Notes under the pieces: model-generated | The model's database searches: none | What the model saw: the letters and a program-made list of their open reading frames with translations, nothing else | What the model was told of the DNA's origin: nothing | Assembly: GCA_021849615.1 (NCBI GenBank) | Contig: JAJZSQ010000006.1 | Span: forward strand, 1-59,212 | Origin: Pseudomonadota bacterium | Lineage (GTDB): Bacteria; Pseudomonadota; Gammaproteobacteria; Steroidobacterales; Steroidobacteraceae | Direction: 5' to 3' | Length of the DNA stretch: 59,212 bases | Program-made: the position numbers and the translations under genes | Part shown: positions 12,074-52,371 of the stretch, one piece after another | How positions within the stretch are numbered: the first letter of the stretch is position 1 | Layout: the number at the start of each line of letters is the position of its first letter

Positions 12074-12518
12074 GCAATTGACTCCTTCGGCTCCAGGACT
12101 GCTGGGATCGTTCGTCGGTTTCGTGCTGCTCGCGCCGCTCCTGCACGCGTCGCTCCTCCTCGCGCCAGTGCTCGGCCACGGTCTCGACCGCAGCGGCACG
12201 CCGCGCGGCATTGCGCCAGTTCTCCAGTTCCGCGCTGCGCGCCGTCTCGGCCTGCGCGACAATCTGCGCCTGATGCTGCAGAGCCTCATCGAGACGGCAC
12301 AGAAAGACCTGATATTCGCGCACGCCGGCCCCACTGAGGCCGGCCTGCGCGCGGCGGGCAAATTCCTGCATGTAGGCGCCGCGGTAGCTCTCGAGCTCCT
12401 GCAGCCGGGCCTGCGCTTCGTTCACCCGACGCTCGCACACTGCGAGCGCTTCGGCGCGGCGCCGCTCATGGTCATCAACCACACGCTGCACCATGTCGAT
12501 CCGTTGTGACTTTTTCAT
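12063..12518 (-). CDS. fliJ: FliJ: flagellar export chaperone/ATPase stalk
   Basis: A 151-residue, almost entirely alpha-helical coiled-coil protein rich in Glu, Arg, Gln and Ala (for example ERRVNEAQARLQELESYRGAY), the stalk that couples the FliI hexamer to FlhA. The ATG at 12518 overlaps the fliI stop (TGATG) and has GGAAGG upstream. A TTG one codon earlier is possible. Confidence 0.9.
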   Translation of the reverse strand: MKKSQRIDMVQRVVDDHERRRAEALAVCERRVNEAQARLQELESYRGAYMQEFARRAQAGLSGAGVREYQVFLCRLDEALQHQAQIVAQAETARSAELENWRNAARRAAAVETVAEHWREEERRVQERREQHETDERSQQSWSRRSQLRVT

Positions 12519-13876
12519 CAATTGCCTTCCGCGAGCACGCTCTCGAGGGCGCCTAAGCTCGCCCCGAGATCGACGCGCTCATGCACGTCTTGCTGTAGAA
12601 ACTGCTGCATCCGCGGCCAACGGCTGATCGCCTGATCGACCCGCGGATCGCTGCCGCGCTGATAAGCACCGATCGCGACCAGGTCGCGATGCTGCTGGTA
12701 GGTGGAGAGAATCTGACGGAACTGCCGGGCGCTCGTAAAATGCGCCGGGGAGACGATTTCGTTCATGACGCGGCTGACGGACGCCTCGATGTCGATCGCC
12801 GGGTAGTGACCGCTTTCTGCGATCCGCCGCGACAGCACGATGTGTCCGTCGAGGATGGCGCGCGCCGAATCGGCGATCGGATCGTTCTGATCGTCACCTT
12901 CGGCGAGCACCGTGTAGAACGCCGTGATCGAGCCGCTGCCCTCGGCGCCGTTGCCGGCGCGCTCGACCAGCTGCGGCAGACGGGCGAACACCGAGGGCGG
13001 ATAGCCCTTGGTGGCCGGCGCCTCGCCGATCGCCAGGGAGATCTCGCGCTGCGCCTGGGCGAAGCGCGTGAGTGAATCCATCAGCAGCAGGACATTTGCG
13101 CCACGGTCGCGGAAATATTCAGCAATCGCGGTGGATAACCACGCTCCGCGCAGACGCGTCAGCGGTGGTGCGTCCGCCGGCGCGGCCACCACCACCGCGC
13201 GGGTACGGTCCTCGGGACCGAGAATACGCTCGACGAACTCCTTGACCTCGCGGCCGCGCTCGCCGATCAGTCCCACGACGATCACCTGGGCGCTGGTATA
13301 GCGGGCCATCATGCCGAGCAACATGCTCTTGCCGACACCGCTGCCGGCAAACAGCCCGACGCGCTGTCCGCGGCCGATGGTCAACAGCGAATTGATCGCG
13401 CGCACCCCGACGTCGAGCGGTGCGCTGATCGGCTGGCGCGCCAGCGGGTTGATCGGACGCCCCGTGAGGCGGACGGTGTCGGTGCAGCCGAGCGGACCGA
13501 GTCCATCGAGCGGCTGGGCGCTGCCGTCGACGATGCGCCCGAGCAGCTGCTCCCCGACATGGACCGTGCCAGCGTGCCGGCGCGGGATGACGCGTGCGTT
13601 CGGACCGAGCCCGTGAGCATCGCCCGCGGGCATCAGATACAGCCGGTCGCCGGCGAAACCGACAACCTCGGATTCGATGCGCGATCCATCCCCGGCGATC
13701 ACGTCGCAGTAGTCACCCACTGCGGCCTGACATCCGGTCGCCTCGAGCGTCAGGCCGACCATGCGCGTCAGACACCCCTCGAGCGGCGGCGGCTCGGTCT
13801 GCTCGACCGAAAGGCGGGTGCGGCGCAGTCCGGCGCCCCAGGCCGCAGCGCGTTTCAGCTGTAACACTTCGCTCAT
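12518..13876 (-). CDS. fliI: FliI: flagellum-specific export ATPase
   Basis: F1-beta-like hexameric ATPase of the flagellar type III export apparatus. Walker A is [14 protein letters not shown] near residue 176, Walker B is [18 protein letters not shown], and the [18 protein letters not shown] and [10 protein letters not shown] motifs are characteristic of FliI. At 452 residues it is full length. The ATG overlaps the fliH stop by four bases. Confidence 0.97.
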
Positions 13877-14529
13877 GGGGTCTCCGGTGTGGCCGAACGA
13901 TCGGCGGTGCGTTCATCGCCGAGGGCGTTCGCGGCGATGGCCGCAATGCGACTCTCCATGCGCGCATCGATGCGGGACGCTTCGCTCTGCACGAGGCAGC
14001 CCCCGCGGGTCAAAGTCGGATCCTCAATCAGGCTCCAGGCACGCTCGCCACCGCCTGCGGCCAGGCGCTCGCGCACCGTCTGGGCGTCCTCCGGATGCAG
14101 ATGCACGCGCACCTCGCGTGCCGCCAGCGGCAGCTGGGCGAGCGATTCGCGCACGATCGCAATGATCTGAGTCGGCTCGGTGCGCAGCTCCCGCCGCGCC
14201 AGCTGCTTGCCGACCGCGAGCGCGAGTTCGACCAGTTCGCCCTCGACCTCCTCGTCGAGCGCCTCGAGCGGACGGGTGATCAGCCCGAGCACCGCGTCGA
14301 GGCGCTGTACGCGCTCATCGAGTGCAGCAAGGCGCACGCGCAGCTCCGCCTCAGCTCGCTCCAGGCCCGCCTGGTAGCCGCGCGACTCGGCCTGCTGCTG
14401 CGCCAGGCGAAGCTCGTTGTCGCTGCGCCGACGCGCATCGGCGAGCTCGATGACCGGCCCGCTGACCTCGGGCAACTGCCAGCGCTCGACCGGCGCGGCG
14501 CCGCTGAACCGTCCACGCAACTCAGACAA
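13873..14529 (-). CDS. fliH: FliH: negative regulator of FliI
   Basis: A 218-residue FliH that links FliI to the C-ring. It has a charged helical N-terminal half ([28 protein letters not shown]) and a C-terminal V-ATPase-subunit-E-like domain ([17 protein letters not shown]...[13 protein letters not shown]...[26 protein letters not shown]). The start is taken as TTG at 14529: it is preceded by AAAGGAG with a six-base spacer, gives MSELRGRF, and overlaps the fliG stop by eight bases. No ATG or GTG is suitably placed. Confidence 0.9.
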
Positions 14530-15538
14530 ACTGCTCTCCTTTACCTGCGAGCGCGATGGTGCCGGCCTCGGCGAGTTTGCGGGCGAGCTTGAGGATTTCC
14601 TTCTGCGCGCCCTCGACTTCCGAAACGCGCACCGGGCCTTTGGCCTCGAGATCGTCCTTGAGCATCTCGGCGGCACGCTGCGACATGTTCTTGAACATCT
14701 TCTCCTTCAGCGCATCGTCGGTGCCCTTCAGGGCGAGCAGCAGCTGCTCACTCGGCACTTGGCGCAACAGCTCCTGCATACCCCGGTCGTCCAGATCGAG
14801 CAGGTTGTCGAATACGAACACCAGCTCCTCGATGCGCGCAGCGAGCGGCGCATCGCTCTTGGCGACCTGCTCCATCAGGGCGCTCTCCTGGCTCGGCTCG
14901 AGGAAATTGATGATGTTCGCAGCCGCCTTGGCACCTCCGAGCACGGACGTCTTGCCGCTCGACTTGCCGGCAAACTGCTTCTCGATGATGTCGTCGAGTT
15001 CGCTGAGGGCACTCGGCTGCACGCCATCGAGCAGCGCGATACGCGCCACCACTTCCGGGCGCATGTTCGCCGGCAGCAGCGCCAGCACCTCGGCAGCCTG
15101 ATCCGGATCGAGATAGGCCAGTACGATCGCGATGGTCTGGGGATGCTCGAGGCGGATAAGCTCCGCAACACCGCGCGGGTCCATCCACTTCAGCGCCTCG
15201 AGCCCCTTGGTGCTGCGGCCGATACTGATCCGATCGATGATGCTCTCGGCCTTGTCAGCCCCGAGGGCATCGACCAGCACCTTACGCAGGAACTCATCGG
15301 CGCCGACGCCGACCGAGGTCTGTCGCTCGACGCTCGCGGTGAACTCGGAGATCACCCCCTGCACTTCATCGAGCGAGACATTGCTGAGCCGCGCCATGGC
15401 TGCACCGATGCGCTGCACCTCCTTGGCGCCCATGTGCTTGAGCACCTGCGCCGCCTCGCCCTCCCCGAGCGTCAGCAGCAGGATCGCCGCCCGTTCGGTG
15501 CCGCTGCGCGCGGCGTCTTTGCCGTTGCGCTCACTCAT
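14522..15538 (-). CDS. fliG: FliG: motor switch protein
   Basis: Rotor protein that transmits torque from the stators and anchors the C-ring to FliF. In 338 residues it shows the N-terminal FliF-binding domain (ERAAILLLTLGEGEAAQVLKHM), the middle armadillo domain with EHPQTIAIVLAYLD, and the C-terminal torque helix with LVFVFDNLLDLDDRGMQELLRQV and the downstream LK region. It overlaps the fliF 3' end by eight bases. Confidence 0.97.
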   Translation of the reverse strand: MSERNGKDAARSGTERAAILLLTLGEGEAAQVLKHMGAKEVQRIGAAMARLSNVSLDEVQGVISEFTASVERQTSVGVGADEFLRKVLVDALGADKAESIIDRISIGRSTKGLEALKWMDPRGVAELIRLEHPQTIAIVLAYLDPDQAAEVLALLPANMRPEVVARIALLDGVQPSALSELDDIIEKQFAGKSSGKTSVLGGAKAAANIINFLEPSQESALMEQVAKSDAPLAARIEELVFVFDNLLDLDDRGMQELLRQVPSEQLLLALKGTDDALKEKMFKNMSQRAAEMLKDDLEAKGPVRVSEVEGAQKEILKLARKLAEAGTIALAGKGEQFV

Positions 15539-17261
15539 CGTTGCCTACCCAGCCGCGCACCAGCTGTGCCACGCGCTTCGGATCCTGGCCGACCATGGCT
15601 CGCGCGTTGGCGAGCTGCTGCTCGTGCGAGAGTGCCTTGACCACCGCCTCCTTCTGCGCCTGCGGCGCGCCGTCGGCCATTCCGTCGGCCCCGATCTGCG
15701 CCACCGCAGCTGCGAGGGGTCGGGCCGGTGTGAGCAGCGAGCGCACCAGTGGCCGCAGCACCGCGATCACCAGCACGATGACCCCGATGAGGCCGGCGGC
15801 GATTTTCAGCAGGCTCCAGAAGATCGGCCGCTCCCAGAAGGGCGCGGACTGGAACGTGCCGCTCGGAGTCGCCGGCAAATCGAGCGGCTCGTTGACCACG
15901 CTCACACTGTCGCCGCGCGCGGCGTTGTAGCCGACGGAATCCTTGACCAGCTGAGTGATGCGCGCCAGCTCCTGGGCCGAGAGCGGCACCTGGGTCACCT
16001 TGCCATTAGCCCCCTTGACCGCGCGGTACCCGACCAGCACCGCCACGGTCAGGCGACGGATCTGTCCGGGCGGCTGGCGCGAATAGTCCAGGGTCCGGTC
16101 GATGTCATAGTTGCGCGTGACGTTACTCGACAGGACGCTCGCACCGCCCGTTGCGCCCACGGCACCCGGAACCGGCGAGACGGCGCCGAGCGGAGCGCTC
16201 CCGGCGGGCTTGGCCGCCGGCTTCGTTGCGGTACTGCCCGGCGCGGTCGTGCCAGGCGCGCCTGCCGTTCCCTTGGCCGCCGCAGCGGCGGACTTCGCCT
16301 GCGCCGGCGGCGCCAACACACCCGGGGCGGGCGGTTCGTTCGAGAGCGAGCCCGGCACACCGCCAGGTCCGCCGGCGCCGCTGCTCTGCTGGGAAATCTG
16401 TTCACTGCGCACGATCTGGCTGTTCGGCTTGTAGAGCTCTTGGGCCTGCTCATGAGTGCCGAGATTCAGCTCCGCGACCACGTCGGCGTGCACGAGGCCC
16501 GGGCCGACCAGCGGGGTGAGCAGCGCGACGATGCGCCGCGAGTCCTCGTTCTCGATGCGGTGCACGAGATCGAAGTTGCGCTCGTCCATCGCGTACGCGC
16601 TGCTGCCCTGTGGCCCGGAGAGCAGCTGACCGTTCTGATCGACCACCGTGACATGCGCGGGCGACAGGTCCGGCACGCTGGAGGCCACGAGGTTCACGAT
16701 CGCCTGCACCTGCTCGGGCCCGAGCACGCTGCCGGCGCGCAGCTGCACGAACACCGAGGCGCTGGCGGCCGTCTGATCACTGACGAACACCGACTGACGC
16801 GGAACGGCCAGATTGACGCGCGCGGCGGACACCTGCTGCATGCTGGCAATCGTATGCGCCAGTTCCGCCTCGAGCGCATGCTGGTAGCGCACGTTTTCGA
16901 TGAACTGACTGACGCCGAAGCCCGACCCTTTGTCGAGCGCGGCAAAGCTGTCGCCCTGGGTGACGCCCTGGCCGGCGAGCTTCAGACGCGCCGCATCGAG
17001 CTGCTCGGCGGGAACCTCCACCCCATTGGTGCTCGGGTCGAGCTGATAGGGGATCTGCGCTCCCTGCAGGGCCTGAACGACCTGCGCCTCCTGTTGCGGC
17101 GAGAGGTTCGCATACAGCAGGCTGTAGGTCGGCCCCCGCGACCACAGCACGATCCAAACGCCGGCAGCGACCGCCGCGGCGATGCCGAGCAGCAGCAGCA
17201 GGGGACGCAGACTCGCCGGCAGAGCCGGCATCGAGGGTAAAGCGGTGGATTCGCCAGCCAT
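15531..17261 (-). CDS. fliF: FliF: MS-ring protein
   Basis: Forms the membrane MS ring on which the flagellum is built. The 576 residues include an N-terminal transmembrane helix at about 20-42, the YscJ/FliF ring-building domains (PTYSLLYANLSPQQEAQVVQAL, VNLAVPRQSVFVSDQ), a long Ala/Pro/Gly loop at about residues 300-370, a second transmembrane helix near 475-497, and a C-terminal FliG-binding tail with VAQLVRGWV. Confidence 0.96.
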   Translation of the reverse strand: MAGESTALPSMPALPASLRPLLLLLGIAAAVAAGVWIVLWSRGPTYSLLYANLSPQQEAQVVQALQGAQIPYQLDPSTNGVEVPAEQLDAARLKLAGQGVTQGDSFAALDKGSGFGVSQFIENVRYQHALEAELAHTIASMQQVSAARVNLAVPRQSVFVSDQTAASASVFVQLRAGSVLGPEQVQAIVNLVASSVPDLSPAHVTVVDQNGQLLSGPQGSSAYAMDERNFDLVHRIENEDSRRIVALLTPLVGPGLVHADVVAELNLGTHEQAQELYKPNSQIVRSEQISQQSSGAGGPGGVPGSLSNEPPAPGVLAPPAQAKSAAAAAKGTAGAPGTTAPGSTATKPAAKPAGSAPLGAVSPVPGAVGATGGASVLSSNVTRNYDIDRTLDYSRQPPGQIRRLTVAVLVGYRAVKGANGKVTQVPLSAQELARITQLVKDSVGYNAARGDSVSVVNEPLDLPATPSGTFQSAPFWERPIFWSLLKIAAGLIGVIVLVIAVLRPLVRSLLTPARPLAAAVAQIGADGMADGAPQAQKEAVVKALSHEQQLANARAMVGQDPKRVAQLVRGWVGNDE

Positions 17262-17270: not shown

Positions 17271-17621
17271 CTACATCTGCATATTCATTATGTCGGTGTA
17301 GGCGCTGATCAGACGGTTGCGCACCTCAGTCAGAGCCTGAAAGGACACGCTCGCCTTCTCCATCTGCAGCACCACCTGCGGCAGCGACACTCCTGGCGCG
17401 CCGCGCGAGAACGCGTCGGCGAGCGCACTGGCACGCTGCTCACTCTGATTGACCGAGTTGATTCCATCCTTGAGGATCGAGGCGAACTCGCTCGGTCCGC
17501 TCACCGCAGCGGCGGCGCCCTGCGCGCCGCCGAGCGGCATCGGCTTCGGCGCATCGAGACGCACCTGGGACGACATGGCGCGGATCTGCGCCAACACCTG
17601 ATCAATGGCCATCTGGCTCAT
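17271..17621 (-). CDS. fliE: FliE: MS-ring/rod junction protein
   Basis: A 116-residue adapter between MS ring and rod. It shows the family C-terminus with FASILKDGINSVNQSEQRASALADAFSRG, LPQVVLQMEKASVSFQALTEVRNRLISAY and a MQM end. The ATG at 17621 is preferred over upstream in-frame codons because GAGGGG precedes it and it begins only 10 bases after the fleR-like stop, which suggests cotranscription from the fleR promoter. Confidence 0.94.
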   Translation of the reverse strand: MSQMAIDQVLAQIRAMSSQVRLDAPKPMPLGGAQGAAAAVSGPSEFASILKDGINSVNQSEQRASALADAFSRGAPGVSLPQVVLQMEKASVSFQALTEVRNRLISAYTDIMNMQM

Positions 17622-17631
17622 GGGGTTCCCC

Positions 17632-18651
17632 TCAGGCCGCCGGAACTTCGACGCCGGCCTCACGCAGGCGGGCCAGCTTGTAACGCAGGGTGCGTGGGCT
17701 GATGCCGAGGCGTTCGGCGGCCTCGCGCCGACTGCCCTGACCGCTCTTCAACGCATCGAGAATCAGGTCGCGCTCGGCCTGGATGAGCGAGCCGGCCAGC
17801 GAACTGACCGTGCACTCGGCGACCGGCGCAGCCTCGCGCACCGGCGCATCATTGGCGAGCTCGAACTGAATGTGCTCGGGGCCGATGACCGGGCCATTGA
17901 GCAGGATCAGGGCGCGCTGCAGCAGGTTGTCAAGCTCGCGCACGTTGCCCGGCCAGGGATAGGTGAGCAGACGATGCGCCGCCTCGGCGCTGAGCGCGGG
18001 GATCTGCTTGCCCGGGCGGCAATGATCGGTGAGCAGTTGCATGGCGAGCGGCAATACATCGTCGCGGCGCTGGCGCAACGGCGCAATCGCGAGCGGGAAT
18101 ACGTTAAGCCGATAGTACAGGTCCTCGCGGAAATGCCCCGCCGCAACCTCCTCGCGCAGCCGCCGGTTCGTGGTTGCGATGACGCGCACGTCAAGACTGA
18201 TCGTCTCCCGTCCGCCGAGCCGCTCCACCTCGCGCTCCTGCAGCACGCGCAGCAGTTTCGCCTGCAGCCCAAGCGGCATCTCGGTTACCTCATCGAGCAG
18301 CAGCGTGCCGCCCTGGGCCTGCTCGAACTTGCCCGGATGGGTCGCGTGCGCGCCGGTGAAGCTGCCGCGTTCGTAGCCGAACAGCATCGCTTCGAGCATG
18401 TTCTCAGGGATCGCCGCGCAATTGACGGCGACGAACGGGCCGTTGGCGCGCGGACTGCGCCGATGGATGTAGCGGGCGAGCACCTCCTTGCCGGTGCCGG
18501 ATTCACCCCAGATCAACACCGTGCAGCCGCTGGCGGCGACCCGGCGCGACAATTCGAGCAGGTGCTGCGAGCTCGCGGCGCAGGCGACCGGTTCCGGGAC
18601 GCTCTGGGCGCTGGTGTTGACGGCAGGTTGTGGCGCGTAAAGTTCTGACAT
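17632..18651 (-). CDS. FleR/FlrC-like sigma-54 activator lacking a receiver domain
   Basis: A 339-residue enhancer-binding protein. After only about 25 unstructured residues the AAA+ domain starts: Walker [10 protein letters not shown], the sigma-54 contact loop as GSFTGA (usually GAFTGA), [39 protein letters not shown], the arginine-finger [14 protein letters not shown], and [20 protein letters not shown]-terminal Fis-type helix-turn-helix follows ([22 protein letters not shown]). The core sequence is of the FleR type, but the phosphoacceptor receiver domain is absent and no FleS kinase gene is adjacent. The ATG at 18651 has GGGGGA upstream; a TTG 12 bases earlier is less likely. It is the first gene of the fliE-K series and sits under its own sigma-54 promoter. 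Confidence 0.88.
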
Positions 18652-18687
18652 CGATTCCCCCAATCGCAGGGATGCTGGATAGGGGAA

Positions 18688-18703
18688 TGCAATTGCCGTG
18701 CCT
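18688..18703 (-). promoter_or_regulatory. Sigma-54 promoter of fleR-like/fliE operon
   Basis: The minus strand reads AGGCACG-N4-TTGCA, with exactly ten bases between GG and GC. It differs from the consensus TGGCACG-N4-TTGCW at one peripheral position. The predicted start is near 18677, leaving a leader of about 26 bases containing the ribosome site. Confidence 0.82.
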
Positions 18704-18723
18704 GGCGAGAAAGTGCTCCTAAA

Positions 18724-18741
18724 GCGTGACGTGCATCACGC
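18724..18741. promoter_or_regulatory. Inverted repeat GCGTGA-N6-TCACGC upstream of the fleR-like promoter
   Basis: Perfect 6-bp arms containing the core GTGA-N6-TCAC, centred about 55 bases upstream of the predicted fleR-like transcription start. The core is that of CRP/Vfr/Clp sites, although both outermost bases differ from TGTGA/TCACA. It may instead be bound by a sigma-54 activator. Confidence 0.5.
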
Positions 18742-18767
18742 GCGCGGCAACCCGCCGCGCCCGGGTG

Positions 18768-19958
18768 TCAAACTTCCGTCGCCGGCTCGGTGAACCCGAG
18801 TTTGCGCAGACGCTCGACGAGCGTCGTACGACGCAGATTCAGCAGGCGGGCCGCCTGAGCCACGGTGCCGTTGGCACGCGCGAGCGCCTGCTGCACCAGC
18901 GCCCGTTCGATCGCGAGCAAATGCTCGCGCAGATCGATGCCCTGCTCGGGCAGCGCACACGGATCGGCTGCATCGCGCGCCGGGGGCGCGGACTCGAGCA
19001 GCTCGAGCGCCTCGAGATCCGTCAGCGCCGGCTCGCAGGTCGCCGCCATGGGCTCGATGCTGACCGCAGCGATCTCCGCCTCGCAAGACCACTCCTGCGG
19101 CGGCTGGTACTTCGGCGGCAGATCAGTCAGATCGACCGTCTGCCCGGCCCGCACGATCGAGAGGCGCTCGACCAGATTGGACAGCTCGCGCACGTTGCCG
19201 CTCCAGGCGTACACGCCGAGCGCGGCGAGCGCACGCGGGCTGAAGCGAACCATGCCGCGCCCCTCGGCTGCGTTGCGCGTGGCGAATTCATTGACGAGCG
19301 CCGGCAGGTCTTCTCGCCGCTCGCGCAGCGCCGGCATCTCGATCGGGAAAACATTCAAGCGATGGAAAAGGTCCTCGCGGAAGGTGCCCTGCGCAATCGA
19401 GGCCTCGAGGTTGCGGTGGGTGGCGGCAATGATGCGCACGTTGCAGCGGATCGGCGCGTGATTACCGACTCGCTCGAACACCCGTTCCTGCAGCACCCGC
19501 AGGAGCTTCACTTGCATCGAGGGGCTCATGTCGCCGATCTCATCGAGGAACAGCGTGCCGCCCTCGGCGATCTCGAAACGGCCCTTGCGGGCGGCGATTG
19601 CGCCGGTGAAGGCCCCCTTCTCGTGGCCGAACAGCTCGGACTCGAGCAGGTCGGCCGGAATGGCCCCGCAGTTGACCGCCACGAAGGGGCGGTTGCGCCG
19701 CGGGCTGAGCTCATGGATGGCCCGGGCGGCCACTTCCTTGCCCGTGCCGGACTCCCCGAGCACCAGCACGGTGGAGTCGAACCCGGCAACCTGGCGAATC
19801 AGGCTGATGACGGCCCGGATGGCCGGAGAGTTCCCGCTCGGCAGTCGCGCCCCTTCCTCGGCACTCGGAAAGCCCGCCGGGGCGGCGCCTTCATTGCGAG
19901 CGTCTTGGTCGAAGGCGATATCCGGGACACATTCGCTGGCGGCCATCAGGGTACCCAT
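18768..19958 (-). CDS. fleQ: FleQ-like sigma-54 activator lacking the N-terminal FleQ domain
   Basis: A 396-residue enhancer-binding protein, likely the master flagellar activator. Only about 45 residues precede the AAA+ domain, against about 140 in Pseudomonas FleQ, so the N-terminal REC-like FleQ domain is missing. AAA+ hallmarks: [13 protein letters not shown]-like [68 protein letters not shown] and [15 protein letters not shown]. The C-terminal Fis helix-turn-helix is [24 protein letters not shown]. The start is uncertain: ATG 19958 (used) or ATG 19946; ribosome sites are weak. The region upstream contains no remnant of the missing domain. Confidence 0.85.
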
Positions 19959-20110
19959 TCTTGCTTGCTGTTCTTCGGGTGGCGTGCCCGGTCCGGACCG
20001 GGCCGGACGGGCGTTCCCCGTGGGACGTACTGTCGCCGATCTGCGCACGGGGTTCTGTGACCGGCCTCCAGATTGTTCACTTTTGGCGACAGGTGCGGGC
20101 GCAGCGTCCT

Positions 20111-20140
20111 GTCGTCACGACGTCACCGACGGTGGTGACG
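20111..20140. repeat. Nested inverted repeats upstream of fliL
   Basis: GTCGT-C-ACGAC (20111-20121) abuts a second perfect dyad CGTCACC-N6-GGTGACG (20121-20140). The second is centred about 133 bases upstream of the predicted fliL start, a distance typical of activator sites for sigma-54 promoters. It is a candidate FleQ-type site. Confidence 0.5.
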
Positions 20141-20163
20141 GAAGTCCGACGCTCCTGTGCGCA

Positions 20164-20179
20164 TGTGATCTGCCTCACA
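20164..20179. promoter_or_regulatory. CRP/Vfr/Clp-type binding site
   Basis: TGTGA-TCTGCC-TCACA is an exact match to the CRP-family consensus TGTGA-N6-TCACA. It lies between the divergent fleQ-like gene and fliL. Vfr, the pseudomonad CRP homologue, is known to bind at the fleQ promoter, so the location is meaningful. Confidence 0.7.
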
Positions 20180-20237
20180 CTCTGCTCTAGCGCAAAACCC
20201 TCGGTAATTCATCATGTTAAGCACGAAATAGAGCTCG

Positions 20238-20253
20238 TGGCACAGCCATTGCA
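20238..20253 (+). promoter_or_regulatory. Sigma-54 promoter of the fliL operon
   Basis: TGGCACA-N4-TTGCA with ten bases between GG and GC; one deviation from TGGCACG-N4-TTGCW. The predicted start is near 20264, about 36 bases before the fliL ATG. Confidence 0.85.
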
Positions 20254-20299
20254 CTGGTCGGTCGCACCCGTATTTCACGGATTTGGAGTTGCACCGACC

Positions 20300-20815
20300 A
20301 TGGCCACCGCACCCGAAGCTGCTGTCCCCGCCGACGCCGCCGAGGTCCCCGAGAAGAAAAAGCGCGGACTGCCCCTGTGGCTGACGATCACCCTGGCAGG
20401 TGTGCTGATCTGCGCGGCCGCCGGCGGTGGCTTCCTGCTGATGCACGCCAAGGCGACCGGGAAGACGCAGGCCAAGGCAGTCCACCCCCCGTCAGGCCCG
20501 CCGCACTACCTGCCGCTGAAGCCCTTCGTCGTCAATTTCCAGGGCAGCCAGCAGGCCCGCTACCTGCAGGTCGCGCTGCAGGTCATGTCGCGCGACCCCA
20601 AGACCCTCACGCTCATCGAGCAGAACGATCCGGTGGTGCGCAACAACCTGCTGCTGCTGCTCGGCTCGCAGCAGGCCACCGTACTCGCCACCGAGGCCGG
20701 CAAGCAGCAGCTGCGCGCCGCAGTGCTCGCCGCGATCCGCAAAATCGTCGCCGGTGCCGGCGGTGATCCGAACAACGTTGCCGCCATCTACTTCACCAGC
20801 TTCGTGATGCAGTAA
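20300..20815 (+). CDS. fliL: FliL: stator-associated basal-body protein
   Basis: A 171-residue single-pass membrane protein with its bulk in the periplasm. A lysine-rich cytoplasmic start (EKKKRG) is followed by one transmembrane helix (LPLWLTITLAGVLICAAAGGGFLLM) and the FliL domain with YLPLKPFVVNFQGSQQARYLQVALQVM and DPVVRNNLLLLLGSQ. The ATG at 20300 was chosen on the family N-terminus; in-frame codons upstream lie in the promoter. GGAG sits about 12 bases upstream. Confidence 0.94.
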   Translation: MATAPEAAVPADAAEVPEKKKRGLPLWLTITLAGVLICAAAGGGFLLMHAKATGKTQAKAVHPPSGPPHYLPLKPFVVNFQGSQQARYLQVALQVMSRDPKTLTLIEQNDPVVRNNLLLLLGSQQATVLATEAGKQQLRAAVLAAIRKIVAGAGGDPNNVAAIYFTSFVMQ

Positions 20816-20837
20816 CCGCGCCCATACCCACGCCCCC

Positions 20838-21842
20838 ATGAGCAACGAGAAGATACTCGACCAGGCCGAAATCGACGCGCTGCTGCACGGCGTCGATACC
20901 GGCGCGGTGAGCACCGAGCCGCAGGTCGCTCCGGGCGAAGCGCGCAGTTACGATTTCGCCAACCAGGTGCGCATCGTGCGCGGGCGCATGCCCACGCTCG
21001 AGATGATCAATGAGCGCTTCGCGCGCCTGCACCGCGTGAGTCTGTACAACCTGCTGCGCCGCGCCCCTGAGGTCGCCGTCGGCCCGGTGCAGATCAAGAA
21101 GTTCAGCGAATTCGTCCACACGCTGCACGTACCGACGAGCCTCAATCTGGTGCGTTTCAATCCGCTGCGCGGTACCGCGCTCATCGTGCTCGACCCGAAG
21201 TTGGTATTTTCCGTCGTCGACAACTTCTTCGGCGGTACTGGCCGGCACGCCAAGATCGAAGGCCGCGAATTCACCGCCACCGAGCAGCGCATCATCCACC
21301 TCGTGCTGCGCAGCGTCTTCGCCGACCTGCACGAGGCCTGGTCGCACGTGGCGGACCTGCAGCTGGAGTACCTGCAGTCGGAGATCAACCCCCACTTCGC
21401 CAACATTGTCTCGCCGTCCGAGATCGTGGTGGTCACCTCGTTTCACATCGAGCTCGACGGTGCCGGCGGTAATCTGCAAGTTGCCATGCCGTACGCGATG
21501 ATTGAGCCGCTGCGCGAAGTGCTCGACGCCGGCGTCGCCAGCGATCGGATGGAGAAGGACGAACGCTGGATGCAATCGCTGCGCGAGGAGATGGAAGATG
21601 CCGAGCTTGCACTGACCACGCTGGTCGGGCACACGCAGGTGTCGCTCGCTGACCTGCTGAACCTGAAGGCCGGCGACATCCTGCCGTGCGATTTCACCGG
21701 CAAGGTCACCATGATCGCCGAGGACGTGCCTGTTTTCCGCGGCTCGCTCGGCACCTCCCGCGGCCACCAGGCAGTGAAGATCGAGGAGCGCCTGCGGCGC
21801 GCCCGAAGCGCACCTGAGCCGATTCAAGTCAACCGTAAGTGA
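20838..21842 (+). CDS. fliM: FliM: C-ring switch protein
   Basis: Binds CheY-phosphate and sets rotation direction. The N-terminal CheY-binding peptide is recognisable as ILDQAEIDALLHGVD at residues 5-19. The middle CheC-like domain follows (MPTLEMINERFARLHRVSLYNLLRR; FFGGTGRHAKIEGREFTATEQRII), then the C-terminal SpoA domain (VSLADLLNLKAGDILPCDF). Its 334 residues are standard. Confidence 0.97.
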   Translation: MSNEKILDQAEIDALLHGVDTGAVSTEPQVAPGEARSYDFANQVRIVRGRMPTLEMINERFARLHRVSLYNLLRRAPEVAVGPVQIKKFSEFVHTLHVPTSLNLVRFNPLRGTALIVLDPKLVFSVVDNFFGGTGRHAKIEGREFTATEQRIIHLVLRSVFADLHEAWSHVADLQLEYLQSEINPHFANIVSPSEIVVVTSFHIELDGAGGNLQVAMPYAMIEPLREVLDAGVASDRMEKDERWMQSLREEMEDAELALTTLVGHTQVSLADLLNLKAGDILPCDFTGKVTMIAEDVPVFRGSLGTSRGHQAVKIEERLRRARSAPEPIQVNRK

Positions 21843-27607: not shown

Positions 27608-28780
27608 ATGAAGATCGTGCGACACACGGCCCCGGATATGCGCCAGGCACTGCGCGCGATCCGCGAGCAGCTCGGCGAGGACGCCGTCATCCTCTCCTCG
27701 CGGCGCGGTGGCCAGGGCGTGGAAGTCACAGCGGCAGTGGACTTCGATGCCGCCCGGCTCGATGGCACCACCGAGACCGCGGACCCGCGCATCAGCGCGG
27801 CGCCCGCCTTCACTACGACGCCGGCATTTCCCCCACCCGCAAGTGATGTCTCGGCCGAATCCATGGGCCATGAACTGAAGACGCTGCGCCGGATGCTCGA
27901 GACGCAGCTCGCCCAGCTGGCCTGGAACGAGCGCTCCCGGCGCAACCCGGTACACGTCGAGCTGCTGCGTGAACTGTCCGAGATCGGCATCACACAGGAT
28001 CTGGCCGACCACCTCGTCGGACAATTGCCGGGAGACGTGGATTTGACGCAGGGGCGACGGTTTACCGTCGCCGGTCTGTCCCAATACCTGCAGGTAAGTG
28101 GCGAGCGGTGGCTCGACAGCGGCGGCTGCGTCGCGTTCGTCGGCGCCACCGGCGTCGGCAAGACCACCGTGCTCGCCAAGCTCGCGGTGCGCTGGATCCT
28201 GCGCCACGGCCCCAACGAACTCGCGCTGGTCGCCTCCGATACGGTGCGCATCGGCGCCCAGGACCAGATGCATTCCCTCGGCCAGCTGCTCGGCGTACCG
28301 GTGCACGTGCCGGAGCGCTTCGAGGCGCTGCCGCAGCTGCTCGGACGGCTCAAGCGCCACCGGCTGGTGCTGATCGATACGCCGGGCACCAGCGTGCGGG
28401 ACAGCCAATTCGAAGCCCGCCTGGCCGTGCTCGGCGCCTGCGCACCGCAGCTCGAGACTGCGCTGGTGCTCGCCGGGAGCACCCAGGCCGGTGCGCTCGA
28501 GCAGACCATCCAGCGCTGCGCGCCGCTGCAGCCAGCCTCCTGCGTACTGACCAAGGTCGACGAGGCGGCAAGCCTCGGCGGCGCACTCTCGGCGCTGATC
28601 CGCGCTCGGCTGCCGGTCTCCTACGTGAGCGACGGGCAGCGCGTGCCTGAGGACCTGCGTCCGGCGCGCGCGCTGGAGCTGGTCAGCCAGGCGGTACGGC
28701 TCGCCAAGGCGAGCGGTGCGGCGGCCGATGAAGATCTTCTGCGACGACGTTTTGGAAAACTTGCCCATGCCAACTCCTGA
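27608..28780 (+). CDS. flhF: FlhF: SRP-type GTPase for polar flagellum placement
   Basis: Directs flagellar assembly to the pole. The 390 residues have a short basic N-terminal region with AIREQLGEDAVILSSRR, then the SRP54-like NG domain: G1 FVGATGVGKTTVLAKLA near residue 180, DTVRIGAQDQMHSLGQLLGVPV, G3 LIDTPGTSVRD (commonly DTAG), and G4 LTKVDEAASLGGALS. It is translationally coupled to fleN. Confidence 0.95.
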   Translation: MKIVRHTAPDMRQALRAIREQLGEDAVILSSRRGGQGVEVTAAVDFDAARLDGTTETADPRISAAPAFTTTPAFPPPASDVSAESMGHELKTLRRMLETQLAQLAWNERSRRNPVHVELLRELSEIGITQDLADHLVGQLPGDVDLTQGRRFTVAGLSQYLQVSGERWLDSGGCVAFVGATGVGKTTVLAKLAVRWILRHGPNELALVASDTVRIGAQDQMHSLGQLLGVPVHVPERFEALPQLLGRLKRHRLVLIDTPGTSVRDSQFEARLAVLGACAPQLETALVLAGSTQAGALEQTIQRCAPLQPASCVLTKVDEAASLGGALSALIRARLPVSYVSDGQRVPEDLRPARALELVSQAVRLAKASGAAADEDLLRRRFGKLAHANS

Positions 28781-29645
28781 GCTCAGCTTGATCAATAACG
28801 CGAAACTCAAGGCGCTCGCGCAACCCGTGCAGGTCATCGCCGTGACCGGCGGCAAGGGCGGCGTCGGCAAGACCAGCGTCTCGGTCAACCTCGCCACCGC
28901 GCTCGCGGCCCGTAAACGGGTCGTGCTGCTCGACGGGGACCTCGGACTGGCGAATGCGGACGTGTTCCTCGGGCTCTCACCGCGCTACACGCTGGCACAC
29001 GTGATCAGCGGCGAGCGCACGCTCGATGAAGTGCTGATCGAAGCACCACAGGGCTTTCAGGTCGTGCCGGCGGCCTCCGGTGCGGCGGATCTGGCCTGCA
29101 TGGGCGCAGCGGAGCACCTGGGTCTGGTGCGCGCCTTCAGTTCACTCGCCGCGCAGGTCGACGTTCTCATCATTGACACCGCCGCCGGCATCGCTCACGC
29201 CGTGCTGCAGTTTGCGCAAGCCGCGCAGCAGGTGCTCGTGGTGATCTGCGATGAGCCGGCCTCGCTCACCGACGGCTACGCGCTCATCAAGGTGCTCAGC
29301 CGCAATCACGGCGTCGGCCGCTTCCGGGTGCTTGCCAACCGGGTACGCAGCCGCGGCGCCGGTCGCGAGCTGTTCGAGCGCTTCGAACGGGTCACGACAC
29401 GATTCCTAGACGTAGTCCTGGAATTCGCCGGGGAGATCCCGGACGATGAATACGTGCAACGCTCGGTACGCGAACAGCGTCCAGTTTGTGACGCATATCC
29501 CGCAAGCAGCGCGGCCCGGGCGTTCAAGAAACTGGCCGAGGTGGCCGATACATGGCCAGTACCTCCCGGTCCGCGCGGGAACATCGAATTTTTCGTGGAG
29601 CGGCTGGTGCAGCGCGGGCCGGCCAAACTCGCGGTGGTGCCGTGA
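28767..29645 (+). CDS. fleN: FleN/FlhG: MinD-like regulator of flagellar number
   Basis: A MinD/ParA ATPase that limits flagellar number; in pseudomonads it binds and restrains FleQ. The 292 residues show the deviant Walker A VTGGKGGVGKTSVSVNLA near residue 28, LLDGDLGLANADVFLGL and IIDTAAGIAHAVLQFA. The ATG at 28767, 14 bases inside the end of flhF, has a GGAAAA upstream and gives the usual short N-terminus. Earlier in-frame ATGs (28716, 28728) are considered less likely. Confidence 0.94.
   Translation: MPTPELSLINNAKLKALAQPVQVIAVTGGKGGVGKTSVSVNLATALAARKRVVLLDGDLGLANADVFLGLSPRYTLAHVISGERTLDEVLIEAPQGFQVVPAASGAADLACMGAAEHLGLVRAFSSLAAQVDVLIIDTAAGIAHAVLQFAQAAQQVLVVICDEPASLTDGYALIKVLSRNHGVGRFRVLANRVRSRGAGRELFERFERVTTRFLDVVLEFAGEIPDDEYVQRSVREQRPVCDAYPASSAARAFKKLAEVADTWPVPPGPRGNIEFFVERLVQRGPAKLAVVP
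29524..29551 (+). promoter_or_regulatory. Possible internal sigma-28 promoter before fliA
   Basis: TCAAG-N15-GCCGATAC lies within the 3' part of fleN, about 90 bases before fliA. Both half-sites match FliA boxes, but the spacer is one base longer than in the three strong FliA sites of this window. Coding constraint could create it by chance. Confidence 0.35.
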
Positions 29646-30394
29646 ACGCCGCGAGCGCTTATGGAGGGCCACGTCAGCTCGGGGCCGCGGGCGATGCGGC
29701 CGACCTGGTGACCCGGCATGCGGAACTGGTCAAGCGCATCGCCTATCACCTGGCGGGGCGCCTACCGCCCTCGGTGGAGATCGACGATTTGGTGCAGGCC
29801 GGAATGCTGGGGTTGCTGGAGGCGGCCTCGAACTACGCCGCCAACCGCGGCGCGAGCTTCGAGACCTATGCCGGTATTCGCATCCGCGGCGCCATGATCG
29901 ACGCACTGCGCAAACTCGACTGGGCGCCGCGCTCGGTTCACCGCAAGGCACGCGCCGTGGCGGCGGCGGTGCAGGAGATCGAGCGGCTGACGGGCCGGGA
30001 TGCACGCGACACCGAGATCGCCGAGCGGCTCGGCGTGACGCTCGAGGAATACCACTCGATCGTGCAGGACGCCGCGAGCTGCCGCCTGGCGGCGCTCGAT
30101 GACGCGGCGGTCACGGTCGAGGGCGAGGCGGACCCGTTTCTCGAGACCGCCGATGACGAATTCCGCGGCGCGCTCGCAGGCGCGATCGATGGGCTGCCGG
30201 AGCGCGAGCGGCTGGTGATGTCGCTGTACTACAGCGAAGGATTGAATTTGAAGGAAATCGGCGCGGTGCTGAGGGTGACCGAATCGCGCGCCTGCCAATT
30301 GCACGGGCAGGCGCTGGTTCGGTTGAAGGCGCGTTTGAATGAATGGCGCGACGGCCCGCAGGCGGGCGAGACAGCAAGACGAGGCAGGCAGTGA
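29642..30394 (+). CDS. fliA: FliA: flagellar sigma factor (sigma-28)
   Basis: A 250-residue ECF/sigma-28-type factor for late flagellar and chemotaxis genes. Region 2 is [32 protein letters not shown], then [32 protein letters not shown], and region 4 is [29 protein letters not shown]. The GTG start at 29642 overlaps the fleN stop (GTGA). It ends in overlap with cheY. The gene would be opposed by FlgM, encoded at 51018-51347. Confidence 0.96.
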
Positions 30395-30777
30395 GCAAAG
30401 ATCTAAAATTTCTGGTGGTCGACGACTTCTCGACCATGCGGCGCATCATCAAGAATCTCCTCCACGATCTCGGCTACTCGAACGTGACCGAAGCCGATGA
30501 CGGCAAGACCGCCCTGCCGATGCTGCAGGCGGGCAATTTCGATTTCCTGATCACCGACTGGAACATGCCGGGCATGCCCGGTCTGGATCTGATCAAGGCA
30601 GTGCGCGCCGATGCTCGCCTCGCCAAGATGCCGGTGCTGATGCTCACCGCGGAAGCGAAGCGCGAGCAGATCATCGAGGCAGCTCAAGCCGGGGTGAACG
30701 GCTACGTCATCAAGCCGTTTACTGCCGAGACACTCAAAGAGAAACTCGACAAGATCCTCGGCACGGTCGGGAAGTGA
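30391..30777 (+). CDS. cheY: CheY: chemotaxis response regulator
   Basis: A 128-residue single-domain receiver that binds FliM when phosphorylated. It shows the acid pair D11-D12, phosphoacceptor D56 in [12 protein letters not shown], the Thr in [10 protein letters not shown] and the Lys in [14 protein letters not shown] start overlapping the fliA stop (GTGA). Confidence 0.95.
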
Positions 30778-30784
30778 GCCGGCC

Positions 30785-31549
30785 ATGTCGAACTTCTCAA
30801 TTCTGCAGCGCGAATACGGAGCATGCCTCGAGTCGATGACCGAGGCGTTTCAGCGCGGTGACGAAGCGGCCTTCTTCACGGCCGTCGATCACATCGTGCA
30901 CATGCGCGAGCCGAAGATGCTCGGAGAGATCCGCAAGCTCACCGGCGATCTGCAGAAGGCACTCGAGCGCTTCAGCATCGAATCGCGGCTCGCGGACATC
31001 GCCGAGCGCGAGATCCCGAACGCCCGCGCGCGCTTGACGCACGTGATCAATATGACCGACGAGGCCGCGCATCGTACGCTCGACTTGGTCGAGCGCTCGG
31101 GCCCGCTGGCCGAGCGAACGGCCCGCGAGGCGAACGTGCTGCTCGAGGCACTCGAAGCGTTCCGGGCGCGACCGGCGCCCGCGGCTGGCTTCGAGGGCGT
31201 GGCACGCTCGCTCGAGGCGTTCCTGCCCGTGGTCCGCTCGCTCGAGGCGTTCCTGCCCTCGGCGCGCTCGGACTGCGAGCAGATCCGGCGCAACCTTGCT
31301 GACGTGCTGCTCGCGCAGGGCTACCAGGACCTGACCGGGCAGATCATCCGCAGCGTCATCAAGCTGGTCGAGGAACTCGAGCGCACCCTCAGCGACCTGA
31401 CCGCGCTTTCCGGCGGCACGGTCGAGCACGCGGCCCTCGGCGAGTCGAACAGCAGCGGCTTCGGCCCGGTGGTTCCCGGCGTGGCCCAAGGAGAAGTCGC
31501 ATCAGCGCAGACCGACGTGGACGCCCTGTTGTCGGGTCTCGGTATGTAA
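30785..31549 (+). CDS. cheZ: CheZ: CheY-phosphate phosphatase with an internal duplication
   Basis: Dephosphorylates CheY-P. The long four-helix-bundle protein has the catalytic segment YQDLTGQIIRSVIKLVEELE, with D182 and Q186 matching the essential DxxxQ of E. coli CheZ. The C-terminal CheY-docking peptide is QTDVDALLSGLGM. It has 254 residues against about 214 in E. coli. Part of the extra length is a 10-residue direct repeat at residues 141-160. It starts seven bases after cheY. Confidence 0.94.
   Translation: MSNFSILQREYGACLESMTEAFQRGDEAAFFTAVDHIVHMREPKMLGEIRKLTGDLQKALERFSIESRLADIAEREIPNARARLTHVINMTDEAAHRTLDLVERSGPLAERTAREANVLLEALEAFRARPAPAAGFEGVARSLEAFLPVVRSLEAFLPSARSDCEQIRRNLADVLLAQGYQDLTGQIIRSVIKLVEELERTLSDLTALSGGTVEHAALGESNSSGFGPVVPGVAQGEVASAQTDVDALLSGLGM
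31205..31258 (+). repeat. 30-bp in-frame tandem repeat inside cheZ
   Basis: Two copies of a 24-base identical block (31205-31228 and 31235-31258) with a 30-base period, encoding RSLEAFLP twice (residues 141-148 and 151-158). Confidence 0.9.
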
Positions 31550-31558
31550 GGTGGGACG

Positions 31559-32299
31559 ATGGACATCCTGAGCATCATCGGACTGGTGCTCGCCGTCAAT
31601 GCCGTGCTCGTCGGCGCGCTATTGCGCGGCGCGGGCGTGATGGCATTGGTTTCGCTCGAGGCGCTGGTGGTCGTTGGCGGCGGGACGATTGCCGCGATCT
31701 GCGTCCAGACCCCCCTGCCGGTGATGCGCCGTGCACTCGGCATCTTTCCCTGGGTCATGCGCCCGCCACCGCGCGACGGACACCATCTCATCGAGAAGAT
31801 CATGCAATGGAGCGTTACCGCCCGCAAACAGGGTCTGCTCGGGTTGGAACCGCTGATCGAGGATGAGCCTGACGATTTCACCCGCAAGGCGCTGCAGATG
31901 GTAGTCGACGGCAGCGAGCCGGAGAACATCAGCAACACTCTGTACGTCGACGTGAACATGCGCGAACACGCCGACATCACGGCCGCCAAGGTGTTCGAGA
32001 GCGCCGGAACCTATGCCCCGACATTGGGGATCATCGGTGCGGTGCTTGGCCTGATGGCCGTGCTGCAGAATCTGACCGATCCGGCCCGTCTCGGACACGG
32101 GATTGCCGCGGCGTTCACGGCCACCGTGTACGGCATCAGTTTTGCCAATCTGTTCTTTCTGCCCGTCTCCGCCAAACTCAAGGGCATCATCCACCGCCAG
32201 ACCCAGTTCCGCGAAATGATCATCGACGGCATGCTCGCGATCGCGCAGGGAGAGAATCCGCGGGCCATCGAAACGAAGCTGCAGGGCTACCTGCACTGA
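31559..32299 (+). CDS. motC: MotC: MotA-type stator subunit
   Basis: A 246-residue proton-channel subunit of the MotCD stator, with four membrane helices: about residues 4-22, 30-48, 146-168 and 178-200. Typical motifs are ESAGTYAPTLGIIGAVLGLMAVLQNL and the HGIAAAFTATVYGISFANLFFLPVS helix. It pairs with motD 11 bases downstream. The sequence resembles MotC/PomA-like stators found next to cheZ in pseudomonads. Confidence 0.92.
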   Translation: MDILSIIGLVLAVNAVLVGALLRGAGVMALVSLEALVVVGGGTIAAICVQTPLPVMRRALGIFPWVMRPPPRDGHHLIEKIMQWSVTARKQGLLGLEPLIEDEPDDFTRKALQMVVDGSEPENISNTLYVDVNMREHADITAAKVFESAGTYAPTLGIIGAVLGLMAVLQNLTDPARLGHGIAAAFTATVYGISFANLFFLPVSAKLKGIIHRQTQFREMIIDGMLAIAQGENPRAIETKLQGYLH

Positions 32300-32310
32300 A
32301 GAGACATCCG

Positions 32311-33171
32311 ATGCGCAGAATCCGTCGTCACGAAGAGCACACCAATCACGAACGCTGGGCAATCCCGTATGGCGATCTGCTCACGCTGCTGCTCGCGTTC
32401 TTCGTGGTGATGTATTCGATCTCCTCGGTGAATGCTGGCAAGTACCGGGTTCTGTCGAATTCGTTGTACGCGGCGTTTCGCGGTCAACAGCGTTCACTGA
32501 CTCCGATCCAGATCGGCCGGACGCGGATCGGTCCGGGCATCATGGCGGGCGCCGTGCCGGGCACGCAACCGGTGCCGACGCGGATCGCGAATCATCCTCC
32601 TGAAGCTGCGCTCGACGCCGCCCCCGCGCCAGTGCACGATCCGCTTCTCGGCCGCATCGCCGCAGGAGTCGACAGCGCAATGGGTGCGCTGATGCACCGT
32701 CACCTGGTGATGATGCACAGGGAAGCGGGCATGATCGAGGTGCAATTCAGCACCGACCTGCTGTTCCCGAGCGGCAGCGCGCATCTCTCCGGGAGCGCGG
32801 TGACCGCGATCACGCATTTGGCAGGTGTGCTGCAGCGTTATCCGAACCCGGTCCGCGTCGAAGGGTTCACTGACAACGTACCGATCCGCACGGTCCAATT
32901 CGCCTCCAACTGGGAGTTGTCGGCCGCCCGTGCCGGCAGCGTGGTGCACATCCTCTCGGCCCACGGCGTCGCACCGAGTCGGCTGGCCGTGATCGGCTTC
33001 GGCGCCCAGCGCCCGATTGCCAGTAACCAGACGGCCGGCGGACGCGAAGCGAACCGCCGCGTCGTGGTCGTCATCCTCGCCAACCATCTGCGCCGGCATG
33101 CCGATCCGGCCTGGCTGCCGCATGCTGCGGGCCACAGCGGCACTGGCACGGAAGCTGCACCGGTGAAGTAG
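32311..33171 (+). CDS. motD: MotD: MotB-type stator subunit
   Basis: A 286-residue protein with a short cytoplasmic N-terminus, a single transmembrane helix at about 23-41 starting YGDLLTLLLAFFVVMYS, the likely proton-binding Asp22, a linker, and a C-terminal OmpA-type peptidoglycan-binding domain with VEGFTDNVPIRTVQFASNWELSAARAGSVVHIL. It anchors the stator to the wall. Confidence 0.93.
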   Translation: MRRIRRHEEHTNHERWAIPYGDLLTLLLAFFVVMYSISSVNAGKYRVLSNSLYAAFRGQQRSLTPIQIGRTRIGPGIMAGAVPGTQPVPTRIANHPPEAALDAAPAPVHDPLLGRIAAGVDSAMGALMHRHLVMMHREAGMIEVQFSTDLLFPSGSAHLSGSAVTAITHLAGVLQRYPNPVRVEGFTDNVPIRTVQFASNWELSAARAGSVVHILSAHGVAPSRLAVIGFGAQRPIASNQTAGGREANRRVVVVILANHLRRHADPAWLPHAAGHSGTGTEAAPVK

Positions 33172-33255
33172 GTACCCGGTCGACGACGGCGGCTTTCCGT
33201 CGCTGTCGGTCCTGCCGGCACGGGTTTTGTGACCGACTTCACAGGAGTTGCGGCC

Positions 33256-33678: not shown

Positions 33679-33686
33679 CAACGGGT

Positions 33687-33713: not shown

Positions 33714-33724
33714 TTACGTTGAAT

Positions 33725-52144: not shown

Positions 52145-52160
52145 TGCAAACGCCGGGCCA
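52145..52160 (-). promoter_or_regulatory. Candidate sigma-54 promoter of flgA
   Basis: The minus strand reads TGGCCCG-N4-TTGCA with the proper ten-base GG-GC spacing. It ends only 12 bases before the flgA ATG, implying a nearly leaderless transcript. Confidence 0.55.
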
Positions 52161-52355: not shown

Positions 52356-52371
52356 TGGCACGCGTCTTGCT
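52356..52371 (+). promoter_or_regulatory. Sigma-54 promoter of the flgB operon
   Basis: TGGCACG-N4-TTGCT matches the sigma-54 consensus at every specified position. The predicted start is near 52382, about 28 bases before flgB. Confidence 0.9.

Follow-up and report, generated by a model that had tools for sequence, protein, structure and literature searches.

The sigma-54 activators of flagellar genes in Pseudomonas (FleQ, FleR) and Vibrio (FlrA, FlrC) are known by their N-termini: the hallmark of FleQ/FlrA is a receiver-like FleQ domain (PF06490), and those of FleR/FlrC are a phosphorylatable receiver and the cognate kinase FleS/FlrB. Class III flagellar transcription in Vibrio is thought to be gated by the response of FlrB to the MS (membrane/supramembrane) ring and the export apparatus. 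In V. cholerae, FlrB-dependent transcription was described as responding to, or depending on, the MS ring (PMC12607845). Activators without a signal domain were grouped as class Ic, among them PspF, HrpRS and LafK, and FleT was described as lacking either outer domain (PMC3162934). In Rhodobacter sphaeroides both FleQ and FleT are without N-terminal domains (PMC9542535); fleT lies in an operon with fliEFGHIJ, and its product forms a hetero-complex with FleQ and has no DNA-binding domain (PMC7277832, PMC11999139). No paper on flagellar activators of the Steroidobacteraceae was found among the matches listed from the open-licence literature searched. Here we analysed a stretch of 59,212 nucleotides (nt) from a bacterium of this family (assembly GCA_021849615.1, contig JAJZSQ010000006.1), referred to as the window. 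It is a whole contig of a metagenome-assembled genome (3.19 Mb, 218 contigs, 87% complete), and it encodes a FleQ-like and a FleR/FlrC-like (hereafter FlrC-like) activator, both without their sensory N-termini.

It was found that the Pfam matches in both proteins were the sigma-54 activator AAA+ domain, its lid and HTH_8, a helix-turn-helix (HTH) domain. The E-values for PF00158 were 7e-73 and 2e-69, the Walker A motif was GESGTGKE, and the activator loops were GAFTGA and GSFTGA; HTH_8 in the FlrC-like protein matched at E 1e-12, and its HTH was conserved. FleQ (PF06490) and Response_reg (PF00072) had no Pfam match in either activator. An earlier note on this DNA, made from the sequence alone, had described two activators starting about 45 and 25 residues before the AAA+ domain, with the FleQ-type and receiver domains gone and no FleS kinase adjacent. 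The domain search bore this out: the AAA+ domain began at residues 42 and 26, only AAA+ and HTH were present, and no FleS kinase lay next to the pair. The loss of the sensor domains from both activators was confirmed. The kinship of the two proteins was nevertheless evident from what is left. The FleQ-like protein was closest to FleQ in its AAA+/HTH part, had P. aeruginosa FleQ (8p53, also 5exx) as its best solved-chain matches and was located beside the fli cluster; the FlrC-like protein, located before fliE, matched best to 4qhs (Flagellar regulatory protein C, AAA+ domain), and its AAA+ and HTH were about 51–66% identical to those of receiver-bearing FlrC/FleR. The hallmark domain of FleQ/FlrA was missing from the former, and both the receiver and the cognate kinase were missing for the latter. 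Having a central AAA+ activator domain and no signal-recognition domain, by which class Ic enhancer-binding proteins are defined (PMC3162934), both are class Ic as judged from their sequences. The GSFTGA loop, which the earlier note had counted as a second deviation, was indeed present, but it is normal for Pseudomonas FleR proteins that have both a receiver domain and a FleS partner (for example L063 and L070) and was ruled out as a deviation by its presence in these intact proteins. Among the FlrC-type proteins it was found in 27 of 34 loci of the window's genus and in 29 of 172 other loci, the latter including duplicate genomes.

The starts of both genes were bounded by relatives. In L015, whose FleQ-like protein is 90% identical, the fleQ-like ATG is preceded by a stop codon at a distance of 5 codons, and in L023 the flrC-like ATG directly follows a stop. 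A start error at the flrC-like ATG was also unlikely because the predicted sigma-54 site in front of it would give a transcript whose 5' end already lies past any potential receiver-coding sequence. Receiver, FleQ-domain and FleS models built in this analysis detected no remnant in the six frames of 17601–20900 (best E 0.026, 2.9 bits). Start error, frame error and hidden domain remnants were ruled out by the relatives' stops, the promoter position and this search, and no start-site error that would restore a sensory domain was found, as the earlier note had expected. The source genome is a fragmented assembly, which might favour an artefact such as a wrong start, a frame error or a chimeric contig. 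However, the sensor-less pair recurs in many separately assembled genomes, including one in a single contig (G049, locus L179), and the promoter and stop positions speak against it as well, so that an artefact is extremely improbable.

Neither fleS nor a full-length FleQ was found elsewhere in the genome, in line with the earlier note: the 87% complete assembly held no FleQ domain and no FleS ortholog, and the best match to the FleS model, which was built from eight FleS proteins, reached 135 bits. When the same search was made over the family, 31 of 200 genomes matched at E 1e-50. Thirty of these matches scored 256–587 bits and were read as FleS; the remaining one (G162, 174 bits in a 968-amino-acid (aa) frame) was the sole match in the window's genus and was read as a paralog. 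No other genome of this genus had a FleS-grade match, including several that are 97–99% complete. The source genome has one RpoN, 18 histidine-kinase-like matches and seven other strong sigma-54 activators. Of these seven, three carry a receiver, two carry GAF and one carries a VpsR domain, and L007 has no N-terminal Pfam domain; the FleQ domain was absent from all of them. An activator with a VpsR-type N-terminal domain (PF20161; G000:C150, L005 1102–2430, minus strand) is a possible exopolysaccharide regulator, in the same genome whose FleQ-like protein has no N-terminal domain of its own. Elsewhere in the window, matches to the receiver model fell in four overlapping chunks within 28801–48600, and the FleQ-domain model matched once, weakly (21.7 bits), in a chunk that also had a receiver match; these are likely to be chemotaxis-type receivers. 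The plus-strand receiver-domain matches lay at about 28800–31800 and 40800–48600, away from the activator pair.

Receiver and FleS were lost together across the family. An FlrC-type protein was found at E 1e-88 in 116 of the 200 family genomes, about the 10 best first-look candidates being scored per genome in this search and in those for FleS and FlhG, and the loci themselves being read for part of the genomes. Of these 116, 27 had FleS and 89 did not, and the 27 were exactly those with an FlrC match identity of at most 64% and an open frame of at least 466 aa; three further genomes had FleS and no FlrC match at this limit. At the level of loci, receiver and FleS were both present in 119 and both absent in 91 of 211 scorable loci, with one discordant; merging identical FlrC cores left 182 loci, split 106, 75 and 1. 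L031 and L049, both receiver-less, were cut by the locus end and say little. In the discordant locus, L096 from P. fluorescens HK44, a receiver lies just upstream in the same frame and is ended by a stop codon. Its fleR (L096 5460–7011) appears as two open frames, receiver and AAA+, split by this stop, which may be a sequencing error or a broken gene. These counts indicated that the sensor-less pair is widespread in the family. FlhG was found at E 1e-40 in 111 of the 116 FlrC-bearing genomes and in 85 of the 89 FleS-less ones, a few at only about 40% identity. In some genomes of the window's genus, FlrC-type and FlhG matches were both missing at the limits used (G002, G015, G016, G191, G195, G209, G216, G218, G219, G221, G223, G224 and G225); some of them are more than 95% complete, and flagella seem to be absent in part of the genus.

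The FleQ domain followed a different pattern. Among the merged loci not cut at an end, 70 had both receiver and FleQ domain, 39 had neither, 17 had the FleQ domain without the receiver (this number may include L096) and 5 had the receiver without the FleQ domain. The FleQ domain was kept without receiver or FleS in L202–L207 and L211–L213 from other families of the order, and eight of these nine were also matched by the first FleQ-domain model, which was based on distant taxa. Diverged FleQ domains, again without receiver or FleS, were present in L169–L172, L183 and L184. The first model gave no match to L169–L172 and L184 and only 24 bits for L183; these domains were called by reading and recovered by a wider model trained on L169, L170, L171, L183 and L184, so that L172 was its only outside match among them. 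Conversely, the FleQ domain was lost and receiver and FleS were kept in L056, L168, L210, L221 and L222, with the cut loci L101 and L181 left out of the count. These intermediates indicated that the FleQ domain was lost separately from receiver and FleS. When mapped on trees built from the AAA+/HTH sequences, presence or absence of the receiver required 3 changes (FlrC tree, 108 rows; FleQ tree, 88 rows), and the FleQ-domain state required 7 on the FleQ tree (83 of the 88 rows, 5 being omitted where the locus ended). The receiver-less family rows were grouped in both trees, 38 rows in the FlrC tree and 37 in the FleQ tree, each with a Shimodaira–Hasegawa-like approximate likelihood ratio (SH-aLRT) support of 99. 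One clade of the 38 family rows plus nine rows of other families was not rejected on the FlrC tree (approximately unbiased test, p-AU 0.977). The receiver was thus probably lost once or twice in the order, with a deep third group formed by L175 and L193, together with L124 on a long branch. L175 and L193, from genera g25 and g28 of the family, carry a deeply divergent sensor-less fleQ-like/flrC-like pair (48–53% identical), and the FlhG match in their genomes (G069, G136) was only 38–41% identical. Two FlhG matches each were present in several genomes of g28 and g36, possibly a sign of a second flagellar system. The loss as a whole is best described as joint, stepwise and clade-wide, as far as sequence comparison can tell.

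The window's flagellar cluster looked intact, with FliE, FliF, FliG, FliH, FliI, FliK, FliL, FliM, FlhB, FlhA, FlhF-type, FlhG-type, FliA-type and MotB-type proteins, FlgA, rod proteins and the hook protein (Table 1). Sigma-54 sites were scored out of 16 against a consensus. Window-wide, thirteen sites reached a score of at least 14, whereas 20 shuffles gave on average 4.25 such sites and never more than 11; an isolated site within a gene is therefore likely to be a chance match. Of 70 distinct receiver-less regions, taken from the fleQ stop to the start of AAA+, 69 had a site scoring at least 12, and 67 scored better than single-base shuffles at 0.05. The receiver-bearing set, searched within 200 nt of the fleQ stop, had such a site in 58 of 79 regions, and 52 of the 79 beat the shuffles. 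The distance of the site from the fleQ stop was mostly 64–69 nt in the window's genus and 44–62 nt in many Pseudomonas and other loci. The similarity of these distances suggests that the fleSR promoter was kept and that the stretch encoding kinase and receiver was removed, for which a single deletion would suffice. The distance from the activator to the start of fliE was 30 nt or less in 77 of 87 receiver-less loci, against 37 of 111 receiver-bearing ones, and a site scoring at least 13 preceded fliE in 44 of 111 receiver-bearing versus 1 of 87 receiver-less loci, the one being L096; duplicate genomes were only partly removed from these counts. The strong sites of the window include those before fliL (20238, +) and before the rod/hook genes (52356, +); the latter is a candidate target of the FlrC-like protein.

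Table 1. Flagellar features of the window discussed in the text
Feature	Position	Strand	Remarks
FleQ-like sigma-54 activator	18768..19958	-	396 aa; ATG at 19958, stop codon ends 18768; AAA+ from residue 42, HTH_8
FleR/FlrC-like sigma-54 activator	17632..18651	-	339 aa; ATG at 18651, stop codon ends 17632; AAA+ from residue 26, HTH_8
Predicted sigma-54 (-24/-12) promoter AGGCACGGCAATTGCA	18688..18703	-	flrC-like-fliE operon; 67 nt after fleQ-like stop, 36 nt before flrC-like ATG
fliE	17271..17621	-	starts 10 nt after flrC-like stop; one operon predicted
fliF	15531-17261	-	after fliE
fliG	14522-15538	-	after fliF
fliH	13873-14676	-	after fliG
fliI	12518-13876	-	after fliH
Predicted sigma-54 promoter TGGCACAGCCATTGCA	20238..20253	+	divergent fliL-fliM
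fliL	within 20285-20815	+	
fliM	20838-21842	+	
flhF, signal recognition particle (SRP)-type GTPase	27608..28780	+	
flhG/fleN, MinD-type ATPase	28716..29645	+	named by position and family
fliA, sigma-70-family flagellar sigma	29552..30394	+	start approximate
Sigma-54-like site	52145..52160	-	start of flgA (51401-52168); inside longest flgA reading frame, hence weak
Predicted sigma-54 promoter TGGCACGCGTCTTGCT	52356..52371	+	before rod/hook genes
Rod/hook genes downstream of TGGCACGCGTCTTGCT	52410-52841, 52871-53305	+	
Hook gene downstream of TGGCACGCGTCTTGCT	54043-55257	+	

We consider it probable, at roughly 0.68, that the locus is a remnant of an ancestral fleQ-fleS-fleR-fliEFGHIJ block and works as a transcription relay of sensor-less activators. 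The stretch encoding FleS and the receiver half of FleR would have been lost from this block, and the fleSR-type sigma-54 promoter would now lie immediately upstream of the half of FleR that encodes AAA+ and HTH; separately from this, the FleQ domain would have disappeared from the N-terminus of FleQ. The FleQ-like protein, whose activity would be limited by how much of it is made and by FlhG, the best candidate for a brake on it, would fire with RpoN the sigma-54 promoters of flrC-like-fliEFGHIJ and fliL-fliM. The FlrC-like protein, with no receiver to phosphorylate, would be competent once made and would fire the rod/hook promoters. Timing may take the place of the MS-ring/export checkpoint exerted by FlrB in Vibrio, since the class III activator would share its mRNA with FliE, FliF and FliG; as its gene heads the operon for the MS ring and C ring, co-expression could set the order. 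The domain losses, the loss of FleS, their joint distribution, the promoter match and the gene layout are observed, whereas phosphorylation-independent activity, FlhG control, promoter use with its targets and the route of the deletion are inferred. The earlier note had left the control of the cascade to expression, FleN or other partners; expression together with FlhG is the most economical of these, while FleN as a ready substitute for the lost inputs is uncertain, and the earlier interpretation of the pair is partly supported.

Several points weigh against the relay. The order of the cascade and its targets rest on promoter matches to a consensus, 21 of the 79 receiver-bearing regions had no score-12 site in the 200 nt searched, so that the promoter is not universal there, and a search for a sigma-70 promoter of the fleQ-like gene gave none. 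One receiver loss or two may underlie the pattern: a single clade was not rejected on the FlrC tree, and the FleQ tree keeps the family rows and the nine rows of other families apart. A different division of labour is conceivable, in which FlrC-like and FleQ-like proteins assemble into a mixed ring, and promoter choice thereby passes from class II to class III, as in R. sphaeroides. The pair described there is also without N-terminal domains, with fleT in a FleQ-dependent operon with fliEFGHIJ (PMC7277832, PMC9542535, PMC11999139), and the layout here is the same, the promoter and operon being predicted. FleT is however described as having no DNA-binding domain, and the FlrC-like protein is set apart from it by its conserved HTH and by its identity over AAA+ and HTH to receiver-bearing FlrC/FleR, and we regard this partnership as unlikely. 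The sensory inputs could also act in trans, so that both AAA+ domains answer to an orphan kinase or receiver, or to a partner protein, for example FlhG or an inhibitor like HrpV. The control of HrpS by HrpV provides a precedent (PMC9542535), the histidine-kinase-like matches of the genome and several receiver matches in the window might supply such parts, and FlhG is nearly always kept; on the other hand, a FleS ortholog was not found in the genome (no systematic search for other conserved partners was made), and this explanation is quite unlikely.

The possibility that the FleQ-like protein is still a c-di-GMP (cyclic di-GMP) receptor through its AAA+ domain, so that the main FleQ input is kept despite the loss of the FleQ domain, bears on a further claim of the earlier note, namely that this input went with the domain. 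In P. aeruginosa FleQ the ligand is held by linker and AAA+ residues (R138, R144, R185, R334 and E330, and R151 in trans); R185 and R334 also serve ATP binding, so their retention is weak evidence (PMC10723142). In the FleQ-like protein R185, E330 and R334 were kept, and R144 has an aligned R, although conservation is poor in that stretch. R138 was changed to S, R151 to P and N186, which we take to be a further pocket position, to A; position 334 varies in the genus (R in 9 of 17 loci printed; Q, T, S or H in the others), and the LFRS motif was gone. Loss of c-di-GMP input along with the FleQ domain therefore does not follow, since the ligand binds AAA+ in P. aeruginosa and the pocket is here part kept and part changed; a functional receptor is nevertheless somewhat unlikely. 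The same protein raises a last difficulty for the relay. In the P. aeruginosa study, the receiver-like (REC) domain of FleQ was required for function, and only constructs with both REC and AAA+ gave stable co-purification of FleN, although AAA+ alone can bind in vitro (PMC10723142). The FleQ-like protein must then work somewhat differently from P. aeruginosa FleQ, because REC is needed there for activity and stable FleN co-purification.

If the relay is extended to other genomes, a large part of the family would run a polar-type cascade without a phosphorylation checkpoint, with two always-competent activators, the second made from the mRNA that also encodes MS ring and C ring, and with operon structure and FlhG replacing the sensing of the MS ring by FleS. 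We put forward this extension tentatively, at somewhat less than even odds. If it is true, the FleS/FlrB checkpoint would be dispensable for ordered assembly. The occurrence of the same loss in many relatives within the family suggests that flagella can do without a common checkpoint or put something else in its place. A large clade in which sensor and receiver are gone together and the domain of the master activator is gone too, with intermediates in relatives, offers natural experiments on what these inputs do. It lets one ask whether transcription order and FlhG alone can sustain ordered assembly.

Compared with the known systems, the window shares with Pseudomonas FleQ-FleS-FleR and Vibrio FlrA-FlrB-FlrC the order fleQ-(fleS)-fleR-fliE and the AAA+/HTH sequences, and in many of those loci a sigma-54 promoter match likewise stands between fleQ and the next gene. 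It differs in the absence of the FleQ domain, the FleS kinase and the receiver, and in that fliE is joined to flrC-like and has no sigma-54 promoter match of its own, such as many Pseudomonas and Vibrio loci show before fliE. With the fla1 FleQ/FleT system of R. sphaeroides (Cereibacter) it has in common two activators without N-terminal domains, the second of them in a fliEFGHIJ operon driven by the first from a sigma-54 promoter (promoter and operon being predicted here); unlike FleT, which has no DNA-binding domain, the second protein of the window keeps its HTH_8. No nameable FleT was found among a plasmid collection and a 398-genome sample of the phylum; other receiver-less relatives were. 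An E. coli plasmid cluster (NZ_CP104632.1, L268) has a signal-domain-less AAA+/HTH activator directly upstream of fliEFGHI and divergent from fliM/N-type genes, an arrangement like that of lateral flagella. This protein, which is presumably LafK, has 325 aa and is about 49% identical, and no other activator was annotated in the 11 kb seen. On a plasmid of the alphaproteobacterium Qipengyuania citrea (NZ_CP098495.1, L124 5809–6975), a receiver-less FlrC-type activator heads fliEFGHI, and no FleQ-like gene was annotated in the 13 kb seen. Ten further phylum-sample stretches (L269–L278) were chosen for short-looking open frames or for matches apart from the main FlrC matches, and nine of them (L269–L273, L275–L278) had a receiver-less activator before fliE; the tenth, L274, had no fliE in the stretch seen. 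In L124, L272, L273 and L275–L278 the open frame extends 80–155 aa upstream, so that another N-terminal domain is possible there. The 29 best other phylum-sample matches returned as loci (L239–L267) all had receiver and FleS. HrpR/HrpS and PspF also have no signal domain, and HrpR/HrpS are a co-dependent pair, but they serve other regulons and are under dedicated partner control, by HrpV in the former case; PspF is controlled by PspA. Sensor-less flagellar activators are therefore of an already known kind. What is new is that two sensor-less activators, each with an HTH, occur as a pair, that this pair is spread within one family, that FleS and receiver were lost together, and that intermediate states exist.

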